Shown here: positions 27,432-38,504 of the stretch, piece by piece
Position numbering within the stretch: position 1 is the first letter of the stretch
Layout of the letters: every line of letters starts with the position of its first letter
NCBI GenBank assembly: GCA_944324345.1
Contig: CALUVT010000001.1
Span: 248,001 to 312,000 of the forward strand
Length of the DNA: 64,000 bases
From: Candidatus Gastranaerophilales bacterium
Lineage (GTDB): Bacteria; Cyanobacteriota; Vampirovibrionia; Gastranaerophilales; Gastranaerophilaceae
Direction of reading: 5' to 3'
Program-made: the position numbers and the translations under genes
Notes under the pieces: model-generated
What the model was told of the DNA's origin: nothing
Database searches by the model: none
The model's input: only the letters and a program-made list of their open reading frames with translations

Positions 27432-28820
27432 ATGTTATCTAACTTAGCACAATTTTTTAAAGAACCGCCGGTAAAAGAGACTATTCAAGATGGCGAAAAA
27501 GTTAAAAGCATGTATGCTCACTGGAGATTTAGAATATTTTATGCATGTTTTATAGGATATACGGTATTTTATCTTTGTAAGAAAAATATAGCTGTTGCAC
27601 TTCCGGGATTAAGCAGTGAATACGGTTATTCAAATACAGAACTTGGTCTTTTAGGAAGTTCTTTGTATTTGACTTATGGAGTCGGAAAATTTATTAACGG
27701 AGTTTTGGCAGACGGTTCCGATGTTAGAAAATTTTTGCCTACAGCGTTGATTATGACGGCAATAGCAAATTTGTGTTTTGCTCTTTCAGCTGTCTTTATA
27801 ACCCCTGGACATGTATCTTTCTTTGGATTACCTACTAATACAATATTGTTATGGTTATTTGTATTTTTCTGGGGTGCTTCTGGTTGGTTCCAATCTGCCG
27901 GGTTCCCTGCTGTTGCAAAAAGTTTAACCTATTGGTATTCCAATTCTGAAAGAGGAACTAAGTGGTCTTTGTGGTCTTGTTCTCACCAAACAGGGACTTT
28001 CTTAAGTGTAATTATTTCCGGATTTTTGGTTGCTCATTGGGGTTGGAAAATGGCGTTTTTTGTCCCTGGGACATTGGCTATAATTACTGCTGTATGGTTA
28101 TATGACAGATTACGCGACAGACCTCAGTCTTTGGGATTGCCTGATATTGAAACTTATAATAACGAGCCTGTGGCTAAAAAAGCTGATAATTGTGAGGAAG
28201 ATAACAGATCTTATGTAGAGATATTTAAGGAAAACATACTCTATAACAAAACAATTTGGCTTTTGGCAATTGCTTATATTTTCGTTTATATCATAAGATT
28301 TGGTGCAGAAGATTGGATGATTAAATATTTAAGTGAGGCTAAAAATAATTCACTTGAGATAGCTGCAATGAAATTGAGTTCACTACCGCTTGTTGGGATT
28401 GTTGGAACAATTTGTGCAGGATTAATTTCTGATAAAATCTTTAAGGGACAAAGGGCAATTGTTAACTTGATATATTTAACAGGGGTTGTTGTTTGCCTTA
28501 TTCTTTTAAAATTTAATACTATTAGTGCTATTGATTTTATTCTAATAGGTTTGTTGGGTGCGTTTACGTACGGCCCTCAGATGATGATTGGCGGACTCTG
28601 TGCTGTTGAATCAAGCTCTAAAAAAGTAGCTTCTGCTGCAACAGGTTTTACAGGAACTTTTGGTTATGTAGGAGCTGTTTTATCTGCTACAGGAACGGGG
28701 TTTATGGTTGACAAATTCGGCTGGAACGGTGCTATTGCATTTTGGGTAATTTCAGCATTAATATGTATTGCAATATGTGTTATATTGATGGTTGATGAGA
28801 AAAAACGCAGACACAATTAA
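27432..28820 (+). CDS. OPA-family MFS transporter (GlpT/UhpT/UhpC-like)
   Basis: A 462-residue major facilitator protein with about 12 transmembrane helices. Features typical of organophosphate:phosphate antiporters are FYLCKKNIAVALPGL near TM1, GLLGSSLYLTYGVGKFINGVLAD after TM2, and LWSCSHQTG. It likely exchanges glycerol-3-phosphate or a sugar phosphate for Pi. The last helix is followed by a short basic tail. It converges with the histidine kinase gene, leaving 1 bp between stop codons. Confidence 0.85.
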   Translation: MLSNLAQFFKEPPVKETIQDGEKVKSMYAHWRFRIFYACFIGYTVFYLCKKNIAVALPGLSSEYGYSNTELGLLGSSLYLTYGVGKFINGVLADGSDVRKFLPTALIMTAIANLCFALSAVFITPGHVSFFGLPTNTILLWLFVFFWGASGWFQSAGFPAVAKSLTYWYSNSERGTKWSLWSCSHQTGTFLSVIISGFLVAHWGWKMAFFVPGTLAIITAVWLYDRLRDRPQSLGLPDIETYNNEPVAKKADNCEEDNRSYVEIFKENILYNKTIWLLAIAYIFVYIIRFGAEDWMIKYLSEAKNNSLEIAAMKLSSLPLVGIVGTICAGLISDKIFKGQRAIVNLIYLTGVVVCLILLKFNTISAIDFILIGLLGAFTYGPQMMIGGLCAVESSSKKVASAATGFTGTFGYVGAVLSATGTGFMVDKFGWNGAIAFWVISALICIAICVILMVDEKKRRHN

Positions 28821-28821
28821 T

Positions 28822-29967
28822 TTACTGCGGAATACAAAACCAAAAAGTACTACCACAATGAAGGCGAGATTTTACAAAAATATCGCCTTTATGTGCTTTT
28901 GCGATAGTTTTACATACGGCAAGTCCAACTCCTGAACCTTGTTGGCGTTTTAGCTGGTTTCTGTTTACTTGGGTAAAAAATGTGAAAATCTTAGATAAAT
29001 CTTTTTTGCTTATGCCATCTCCGCTGTCTTTTATTTCAAAGATAAATTCATTATTGGTATTTAAGTATGAAATAATAGATATTATACCGTTTTCTTTGCT
29101 GAATTTAATTGCATTGGAAATAAGATTGTATACAAGCTGCTTAAACCTAAGAGGATCTGCTGTGATTGTTACATCCGAAAGAGTGTAATTAAACGTGAGA
29201 TTTTTTTCTTTACGCATTTCATCAAAGCTCCAGATGATATCACTTATAATTTTTTTAGGTTTACATTTTTCTAAATGAAGTTCAAGTGGTTTGTAGTTGC
29301 TTCTTGAAAAATCCAGCACATTCTGTATTAACCCCATAAGAAACAAGGCACTTTGATGAACATTATTTATATGTTTTTCATGTTTTGTCCCTTTGAGATT
29401 TTCGGAAAGCAAGTCGGCAAAACCAATTATTGAATTTAATGGGGTTTTAAATTCGTGAGAGACACTTGCTAAAAATTCCATTCGGTTTTTGTGATTGATT
29501 TCTCTCTCTTTTATCAGTGAAATAATTTCAAGTTTTGAATTAATATATTCAATTAGAATGTTTACTGTATCAATGTTATCCCTATAAAAATTTTTGTCAT
29601 TGCCAACAAGTCCAATATAGCCAAGAGTGTTATTCCTGTATATTATTGGCTTAATGATTTTATCGTCTTTAGATAAAAAAATCATGTAATCATATAAATC
29701 ATTTATTTCTACATTATTATAAAAATCCGACATAATCTGCCGAATTTTCTTTAACTGGGCAATTAGCTCTTTGTCCTTTTTATATAAATCTGTCCCTTTA
29801 ATACGGTTAATTTCAATTTTATTAGTTTCCCAGTTCGCAAGTCCTATCCAGGCTGCTTTTGCTTGTGTAGTTTCCAACAGCCCCTGATTTATAAGATCTG
29901 TTATTTCTTTCTCTGTTTTAGCTGTATTAATTTTTTTCACAAAACTGTAAATTGCTTCTTTGTTCAT
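28822..29967 (-). CDS. Soluble sensor histidine kinase
   Basis: A 381-residue kinase with a GAF-like sensor (~1-150), a HisKA dimerisation domain with SHEFKTPLNS (His near 173) and a HATPase domain (NLISNAIKFS, DSGDGISKKDL, GSGVGLAVCKT). There is no membrane segment, so it senses a cytoplasmic signal. No response regulator is adjacent; the lone receiver at 51231 is 21 kb away. The start ATG 29967 lies 6 nt after TATAAT (minus, 29974-29979) with no Shine-Dalgarno; this promoter overlaps that of gmk. Confidence 0.88.
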   Translation of the reverse strand: MNKEAIYSFVKKINTAKTEKEITDLINQGLLETTQAKAAWIGLANWETNKIEINRIKGTDLYKKDKELIAQLKKIRQIMSDFYNNVEINDLYDYMIFLSKDDKIIKPIIYRNNTLGYIGLVGNDKNFYRDNIDTVNILIEYINSKLEIISLIKEREINHKNRMEFLASVSHEFKTPLNSIIGFADLLSENLKGTKHEKHINNVHQSALFLMGLIQNVLDFSRSNYKPLELHLEKCKPKKIISDIIWSFDEMRKEKNLTFNYTLSDVTITADPLRFKQLVYNLISNAIKFSKENGIISIISYLNTNNEFIFEIKDSGDGISKKDLSKIFTFFTQVNRNQLKRQQGSGVGLAVCKTIAKAHKGDIFVKSRLHCGSTFWFCIPQ

Positions 29968-29969
29968 TG

Positions 29970-29981
29970 TATAATTATAAT
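29970..29981. promoter_or_regulatory. Overlapping divergent -10 boxes of gmk and the histidine kinase
   Basis: TATAAT on the plus strand at 29970-29975 ends 6 nt before the gmk ATG (29982). TATAAT on the minus strand at 29974-29979 ends 6 nt before the kinase ATG (29967). Only 14 bp separate the two start codons, so there is no room for a Shine-Dalgarno on either side, and both messages are probably leaderless. Confidence 0.65.
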
Positions 29982-30545
29982 ATGAACAAAAAATTATTTG
30001 TAGTATCAGGGTCATCAGGTGTCGGTAAAGGCACTGTTCTTAAGGAATTTCTTAAAAGAAATCCCGATTTTATGCTTTCAATTTCTTGTACAACAAGAAA
30101 ACCCAGAGAAGGAGAAGTTGACGGAGTTAATTACTTTTTTATTTCCAAGGATGAATTTAAAAAAGCTGTTCAAAGTGATAAATTCCTTGAATGGGCAGAG
30201 TTTGCCGGAAATTTTTACGGCACAAAAAAGAAGTTTATAAATCAATGTCTTGAAGAAGGTAAAAACATTATTCTTGAAATAGATACTCAAGGGGCTTTAA
30301 AAGTAAAACAACAGATGCCTGAGGCTATTTTGATATTTATTTGTCCACCGTCTCTCGAGGCTCTTGAAAATCGTTTGAGAGGGCGTCATACAGAAGATGA
30401 GGAAACTATTCAAAAGCGTCTTATGGAAGTTCAGGAAGAGATAAAACGAGCTGAAAGTTTTGATTATAAAATAGTAAATGATAATTTAGACAATGCGGTT
30501 TTGGAGTTAGAAAAAATTTTATCCGGAGAACAAGAAAATGCTTAG
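29982..30545 (+). CDS. gmk: Guanylate kinase
   Basis: A 187-residue enzyme converting GMP to GDP with ATP. P-loop GSSGVGKGT at 9-17; SCTTRKPREGEVDGVNYFF, and EIDTQGALKVK follow the family plan. ATG 29982 was chosen because it aligns with the normal N-terminus; the upstream ATG at 29952 would lie inside the divergent gene. Its stop overlaps the coaBC start by 8 bp. The usual neighbour rpoZ is missing. Confidence 0.95.
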   Translation: MNKKLFVVSGSSGVGKGTVLKEFLKRNPDFMLSISCTTRKPREGEVDGVNYFFISKDEFKKAVQSDKFLEWAEFAGNFYGTKKKFINQCLEEGKNIILEIDTQGALKVKQQMPEAILIFICPPSLEALENRLRGRHTEDEETIQKRLMEVQEEIKRAESFDYKIVNDNLDNAVLELEKILSGEQENA

Positions 30546-36820: not shown

Positions 36821-37498
36821 TAACTCTTTTTTCCATTGTCTGTAAAAATAGATTGCAAGTATAAAATAAACTCCCCACATAACAACTGTTGAATATGCTT
36901 TTGTGCCGTTAATAACTAGGCTTAGCCACATAAAAAACGAAAGTCCGTTAACAACCATCCAAACAATCCACTGCTCAATTGCTCGTTTTACGGTTAAATA
37001 CATCCCAAGTATTGATAAAAATGTTGTAATTCCGTCGATAATTGGACTTTTATCATGGAAATAATTCAGTAATACAATAGTTCCAATACAGCCTATTATA
37101 CCAATAAGAAAAAGAATTAAGTTTTGTTTTTGTGTTAATTTAATTTTGACAATTTCGCCAGATTCTTTTTTCAAGTGTTTTTGCCATCTGAAAATCCCCA
37201 AAACTTGCATAGGAATGTAATATAAAAGATATAGCAGCATATTTCCCCATAATGCATTTTCAAATGAGAGAAATATATAGCATCCTGAGCCCATGAGCCC
37301 GAAAAAATAACATGAAATTTTACCCTTCCCCGCGATTATGGTATACAAAATTCCGCATATAGCGTTAATAACTGCTGCAGGACTATCTTTTAAGATAAAT
37401 ATATTAGTTAAAATCATCACAAGTACTACTGCTAACCCTATTATTTCAAAAGGTTGCCAGCCGCTTAATTCTTTTTTAATAAATTCTGTGATTTTCAT
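36812..37498 (-). CDS. pnuC: Nicotinamide riboside transporter PnuC
   Basis: A 228-residue membrane protein with seven or so hydrophobic helices. GWQPFEIIGLAVVL at the start and WQKHLKKESGEI, RAIEQWIVWMVVNGLSF follow the PnuC family plan. It imports nicotinamide riboside for NAD synthesis. I favour ATG 37498 over 37507: a -10-like TATACA (minus, 37508-37513) abuts 37507, so a transcript from it would start at about 37500. It diverges from the gene at 37524. No NAD riboswitch was seen. Confidence 0.82.
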   Translation of the reverse strand: MKITEFIKKELSGWQPFEIIGLAVVLVMILTNIFILKDSPAAVINAICGILYTIIAGKGKISCYFFGLMGSGCYIFLSFENALWGNMLLYLLYYIPMQVLGIFRWQKHLKKESGEIVKIKLTQKQNLILFLIGIIGCIGTIVLLNYFHDKSPIIDGITTFLSILGMYLTVKRAIEQWIVWMVVNGLSFFMWLSLVINGTKAYSTVVMWGVYFILAIYFYRQWKKELKN

Positions 37499-37523
37499 TA
37501 TTAGCATTGTATAATGAATTCAC

Positions 37524-38504
37524 ATGAAAGTACAGGCGATATATAATAGCAAAATTTTAAAAAAAGGATTAGAGTTTGCGGCAGATAATGGTTCATTATT
37601 TGTGGCAACAGCTTCTTTGGCTCTTTCTACTGTAGCTCGTCCTATTGCGATTATGGCAACTCCAAAAACAGATAAGGAAAATAAAAAATATGCCTGTGCA
37701 AAATCTCTCGCATCAAGTGCTGTCGGTTACCTTTTAATGTTTGCGGCATCTTCTCCTGTTGCAAGGGCGGTAAAAAATATTGATACAAGACCGTATGAAT
37801 ATTTAAAAAAGACAACAGTAGAAAACCTAAAATCTGGTGAGAAGAGTTTAAAATCTTCAGGGAAATATAAATTTGCAACTCAATTATTTAAGCTAGGAAT
37901 AGGTTTTGTGATTGCTGTCCCAAAGTCCATAATGACTTGCTCTTTGATTCCACCGTTTATGTCCCTGTTGTTTCGCAGAAAAAAGAATAAGGAACAGGCA
38001 AAAAAAACGGTAACTTTTACTGGTTTATACAACAACGGAACTAAAAAACTTTCAAAGTTTTTTGGAAAAATAATTGATACCTCATTTGTTCAAAAAATGT
38101 CTGAAAAATTCCACAAAACAAATTTTGAACAGCATATAATCTCTTTAACAGATGCCCTTACAACAACTGCATTTATCGCACAAACAGCTCACAGTAAAAA
38201 GATTGAACAGTCAAGAAAAAAGGCTTTGATGTACAATTCTGCTATCTCTACAGGGTTGTGTATCGCAGGAGGATATGCTATTAACGGTATGCTGGAAAAG
38301 CCGACAGAAAAATTTATTAAAAATTTCATACAAGCAAATAAAGATTCCAAAAATTTAGGGAAATACATTGAAGGTATAAAAGTTGCTAAACCGGCCCTTA
38401 TACTTGGAGGAATTTATTATATTGTTATCCCAATAATATCAACATTTTTTGCAGACAGATTTGATAAACATTCAAAAAATCCAGCAAATCAACCGGTACA
38501 ATAA
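37524..38504 (+). CDS. Unknown membrane protein, lineage-specific type
   Basis: A 326-residue protein with four or five hydrophobic segments (~22-45, 62-80, 120-145, 240-255, 285-305) between basic, Lys-rich loops. MKVQAIYNSKILKKGLEFAADNGSLF begins it; no signal peptide is apparent. I recognise the style from Gastranaerophilales-type genomes but know no function. TATAAT (37510-37515) ends 8 nt before the ATG, giving a near-leaderless message. Its stop abuts the bioB stop. Confidence 0.6.
   Translation: MKVQAIYNSKILKKGLEFAADNGSLFVATASLALSTVARPIAIMATPKTDKENKKYACAKSLASSAVGYLLMFAASSPVARAVKNIDTRPYEYLKKTTVENLKSGEKSLKSSGKYKFATQLFKLGIGFVIAVPKSIMTCSLIPPFMSLLFRRKKNKEQAKKTVTFTGLYNNGTKKLSKFFGKIIDTSFVQKMSEKFHKTNFEQHIISLTDALTTTAFIAQTAHSKKIEQSRKKALMYNSAISTGLCIAGGYAINGMLEKPTEKFIKNFIQANKDSKNLGKYIEGIKVAKPALILGGIYYIVIPIISTFFADRFDKHSKNPANQPVQ

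Follow-up and report, generated by a model that had tools for sequence, protein, structure and literature searches.

Overlapping -10 boxes between gmk and a histidine kinase gene point to a probable minimal bidirectional promoter of two leaderless genes in Gastranaerophilales

The window, i.e. the whole stretch of 64,000 nucleotides that was analysed, contains two divergent genes whose start codons lie almost back to back. On the plus strand, gmk (29982-30545), the first gene of gmk-coaBC, encodes guanylate kinase (TIGR03263, 248.8 bits, above the cut-off; PF00625). The minus strand carries at 28822-29967 the gene of a soluble sensor histidine kinase, in which an N-terminal alpha/beta domain is followed by HisKA and HATPase_c, as judged from PF00512, PF02518 and a structure model. 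The model (mean pLDDT 79.9, pTM 0.48) displays the alpha/beta N-terminal domain and a long helix, and among its PDB matches kinase cores and phytochromes predominate. We read the layout of the modelled N-terminal domain as GAF-like. The kinase shows no long hydrophobic stretch, which fits a soluble sensor. A gene for a GlpT/UhpC/PgtP-like MFS transporter (27432-28820) converges on the kinase gene. This gene adjoins the kinase gene in 22 of 25 kinase loci, including those in which gmk is located elsewhere (loci L156-L177), and the transporter may be the functional partner of the kinase.

In the window sequence the kinase ATG begins at 29967 (minus strand) and the gmk ATG at 29982 (plus strand), which leaves an intergenic gap of 14 bp (TGTATAATTATAAT, 29968-29981) that holds both -10 boxes. 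Hereby, gmk is preceded by TATAAT at 29970-29975 (plus strand) and the kinase gene by TATAAT at 29974-29979 (minus strand), each box ending 6 nt before its ATG. The spacing and both positions are exactly those of the original prediction, which had been made from the letters of the window. The boxes have positions 29974-29975 in common and together make up a palindrome of 10 bp (TATAATTATA, 29970-29979), perfect by inspection, so that a single element, the putative shared core of a bidirectional promoter, can be read on both strands. In random sequence of local composition the chance of finding TATAATTATA at that place is p ~ 6e-5. The gap contains no Shine-Dalgarno sequence before either ATG and offers no space for one, as had been claimed, and both gmk and the kinase gene show the pattern of leaderless genes, namely a -10 box about 6 nt before the start and no Shine-Dalgarno site. 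By inspection, matches to a -35 element are weak in both directions. An additional TATAAT on the plus strand (29976-29981), unmentioned in the original prediction, abuts the gmk ATG; it was set aside as a functional box and is probably incidental, since it is not conserved and many relatives carry TATACT or TATAGT instead. A comparison with Rfam gave no match at the gap, and elsewhere only a tmRNA and a tRNA.

The original prediction had proposed checking the two boxes in related genomes. Here, 56 distinct gmk loci with a protein identity of at least 70% were compared, in 24 of which the kinase gene lies 14 bp away, while in 32 it does not. TATAAT is found 6 or 7 nt ahead of the gmk ATG in 52 of the 56 loci, with or without an adjoining kinase gene (24/24 kinase-adjacent loci; 28/32 others), and it is kept despite unrelated upstream DNA, e.g. 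in L044, where it directly follows a terminator-like inverted repeat. The minus box retains A-11 and T-7 in 24/24 kinase-adjacent loci compared to 4/32 others at the same spacing (Fisher P 9e-12, a value that is overstated since the loci are related by descent); if a spacer of 7 is also allowed, 15/32 non-adjacent loci carry A-11 and T-7, presumably through AT-richness. Within the kinase-adjacent set the minus box reads TATAAT in 19 loci, TATGAT in two, TACAAT in two and TACGAT in one. Where the kinase gene is absent or displaced, the minus box at the gmk locus has mostly decayed, and in two apparent recent losses (L004, L007) the plus box is perfect while the minus box has turned into AACAAT or TCTAAT. 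Kinase genes located away from gmk in turn possess a near-start -10 box of their own, with a spacer of 7 in L159 and L163, 6 in L160 and 9 in L168 and L171. Across the 24 relatives with the gene pair, the gap shows no variation at 11 of its 14 positions and averages 95% identity to the window, compared to 72% (gmk) and 50% (kinase) at third positions of the first codons. Judged from this comparison, each box is maintained by its own gene, independently of the pairing, and the conserved overlap of the boxes is not due to chance. More distant gmk loci (e.g. L073, L087) carry TATAAT 25-32 nt upstream, some of them with an SD-like AGGA.

The spacing of each box from its ATG recurs genome-wide. For genome G000 (Gastranaerophilales, 1.76 Mb, 33% GC in the sample) 407 genes in a 464-kb sample, corresponding to 26% of the genome, were counted, with the first ATGs of long open frames serving as uncurated gene starts. 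Exact TATAAT occurs at spacer 6 in 12 genes and at spacer 7 in six, compared to 1.47 expected per position from positions further upstream (P 6e-8). A second species of the genus, G007, yields 15 and 9 genes, respectively, over a background of 1.32 (P 1e-11). Internal Met codons show no TATAAT peak at such spacing, nor is the peak found in two more distant genomes, G056 of the same order and G069 of the same class. The presence of the peak in both genus members examined and its absence from G056 and G069 suggests a lineage-specific shift. Among 93 TAnnAT upstream sequences free of a Shine-Dalgarno motif, T-15 is present in 74%, A-16 in 58% and G-14 in 43%, accompanied by a T-rich stretch from -19 to -17 and a weak TT at -35/-34; these upstream elements played no part in the selection of the set. 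By a simple motif test 43% of the genes are Shine-Dalgarno-led. Because the TATAAT peak at spacer 6-7 coincides with upstream elements that were not selected for, the predicted leaderless promoters of G000 are of sigma70 type and form a minority class beside the Shine-Dalgarno-led genes; as a positional class, leaderless-type promoters are found in G000 and G007 alike. In G000, several genes (L118, L119, L123, L124) share a start sequence similar to TGCTATAATAGTGATATGAAACATCAC and would form a repeated leaderless gene family with near-identical first codons.

Taken together, we consider it probable (roughly 0.8) that gmk and the kinase gene are two leaderless genes driven by one minimal bidirectional promoter of sigma70 type, which would span only the 20 bp from CAT to ATG (29965-29984). 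Sigma70-type RNA polymerase would recognise TATAATTATA in either orientation and begin transcription 7 nt past the respective -10 box, on the A of either AUG. The predicted transcription starts thus fall within the start codons, at 29982 for gmk (start codon 29982-29984, plus strand) and at 29967 for the kinase (start codon 29965-29967, minus strand), 15 bp apart. Starting on the A of AUG, each mRNA would open with its start codon and would be translated without a Shine-Dalgarno site. The idea that both genes are leaderless, put forward in the original prediction, thus gains support from the comparative and genome-wide evidence. By inspection, the A of each AUG should pair with the T that represents position -15 of the opposing promoter. 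No base upstream of the -10 box is better conserved in the genus than T-15, and with the AUG A paired to it start codons and promoter contacts would be interlocked.

This reading has to be weighed against other explanations. The annotated starts could be wrong, with the true starts and their Shine-Dalgarno sites lying inside the genes, an outcome that the original prediction itself had named among its refutations. Beyond the general possibility nothing speaks for it, and it can hardly be credited: the P-loop of gmk (GSSGVGKG) lies within the first 16 residues, TIGR03263 is aligned from residue 4, and close relatives share the N-termini of both proteins (MNKKLFVV in gmk, MNKxAIYxFxKKIN in the kinase) from the first Met onwards. 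An in-frame TTG at 29952 would in principle allow gmk to begin further upstream. Alternatively, only gmk might possess a real leaderless promoter, while transcription of the kinase gene begins at a promoter farther upstream within gmk and the TATAAT ahead of the kinase ATG arises incidentally from an AT-rich palindrome. The DNA is indeed AT-rich, and a sigma70 scan including the -35 element returned 16 sites compared to 14.5 expected, so that weak promoter-like sites occur region-wide at about the shuffled rate. We nevertheless regard this explanation as improbable, given that the minus box is kept, or reads TATGAT, TACAAT or TACGAT, in every counted kinase-adjacent relative and is usually lost where the kinase gene is gone or displaced, that kinase genes located apart from gmk retain a -10 box close to their start, and that the kinase ATG lacks a preceding Shine-Dalgarno site.

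A further explanation takes the overlap to be a selected switch, in which competition between the two orientations sets the ratio of histidine kinase to guanylate kinase and couples signalling to GTP supply. Since the boxes share positions 29974-29975, polymerase should be accommodated in only one orientation at a time, and the mutual exclusion that the original prediction had postulated is in line with the sequence. Competition is moreover possible in principle: in E. coli bidirectional promoters it arose when one direction was strongly activated, and only then, whereas all five promoters tested were free of it at basal activity (PMC12825309). The original prediction had gone further and proposed a built-in competition between the kinase gene and gmk. 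Such a dedicated contest is not supported, because the E. coli promoters show no basal competition and 32 of the 56 close gmk loci have either lost the pairing or never acquired it. Since these loci do without a kinase gene 14 bp away and the separated genes keep their near-start -10 boxes, the pairing is dispensable in evolution. In addition, the steadier neighbour of the kinase gene is the gene for the sugar-phosphate-type transporter. A selected switch is thus unlikely, and at ordinary activity the two directions of the proposed bidirectional promoter would probably disturb each other little. The arrangement looks like economy combined with promoter symmetry rather than a dedicated switch.

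The shared module is not confined to the gmk locus. With at most one mismatch, CATnnTATAATTATAnnATG gives 83 matches in 33 genomes of the genus, a count that includes orthologous loci repeatedly, compared to six for the reversed control. In three further species of the genus (G028, G010, G012) the 14-bp geometry is repeated between the divergent genes rarA and one for a sugar-binding protein. A reading of the CAT opposite rarA as a widespread double-leaderless pair was rejected, since most species have no long gene starting there and only these three count; the palindromes at L151 and L129 were likewise dismissed, as no genes start at both boxes. At G000:C2:249880-249899 (L187), TATAATTATA is common to a leaderless sugar permease gene and a phosphomannomutase-like gene that has a normal leader, both named from a reading of their translations; the 20-mer at this site is found again in many species of the genus. 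The window itself harbours a second near-leaderless bidirectional pair with overlapping -10 boxes at 37496-37526, formed by pnuC (minus strand, ATG 37498, TACAAT, spacer 7) and a 326-aa gene of no assigned function (plus strand, ATG 37524, TATAAT, spacer 8). Its predicted starts are 23 bp apart, a distance preferred in E. coli. A tentative and rather doubtful proposal is that the genus, perhaps the family, uses recurrent 20-bp modules of two interlocked promoters and two start codons, in which mutual exclusion then links the genes. As part of this proposal, the extended -10 consensus (C/T)ATG-n-TATAAT would spell, in reverse complement, a start codon in the position that a divergent leaderless gene requires, so that promoters might easily gain one.

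Bidirectional promoters have been described by Warman, Grainger and colleagues, in which near-symmetrical -10 DNA gives rise to divergent starts a few bp apart and opposing polymerases exclude each other; in E. coli the preferred distances are 10, 18 or 23 bp, and at the frequent 18-bp distance the +1 A of one promoter is paired with -18T of the opposing one (PMC12825309, PMC10268837). The gap between gmk and the kinase gene resembles these promoters in that near-symmetrical -10 DNA is common to both strands. It differs from them in its predicted distance of 15 bp, in a +1 A that would lie opposite -15T instead of -18T, and in that both transcripts are predicted to be leaderless, the promoter enclosing both start codons. 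A survey by Zheng et al. from 2011 dealt with leaderless genes that lack a Shine-Dalgarno site and carry a TA-like box directly ahead of the start codon; it places its stress on Actinobacteria and Deinococcus-Thermus and states that many Cyanobacteria use neither mechanism (PMC3160421). The genes considered here agree with those of this survey in the fixed distance between -10 box and ATG, in the missing Shine-Dalgarno site and in forming a genome-wide minority beside Shine-Dalgarno-led genes, but they belong to one gut lineage related to Cyanobacteria and occur back to back. In the open-access literature we found no paper on leaderless genes in Melainabacteria or Vampirovibrio, and none of the titles or abstracts among the open-access matches describes a double-leaderless bidirectional promoter. 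In phage lambda PRM/PR, the leaderless cI gene transcribed from PRM likewise faces an interfering divergent promoter. There, the lack of a leader is limited to one side and the -10 boxes are separate, whereas at the gmk locus both genes are predicted to be leaderless and the boxes overlap. The promoter between gmk and the kinase gene would thus join two known kinds, the bidirectional promoter and the leaderless gene, and is probably a compact form of two-way promoters.

In conclusion, the region between gmk and the kinase gene offers a natural and conserved example of promoter geometry and translation starts that appear to coincide on both strands. As a short module it would provide a clean test object for the choice of orientation by RNA polymerase. 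In such genomes, start prediction may go wrong if a gene finder relies on Shine-Dalgarno sites. For the Gastranaerophilales themselves, the finding points to a lineage-specific class of leaderless genes, undescribed in the open-access literature searched.
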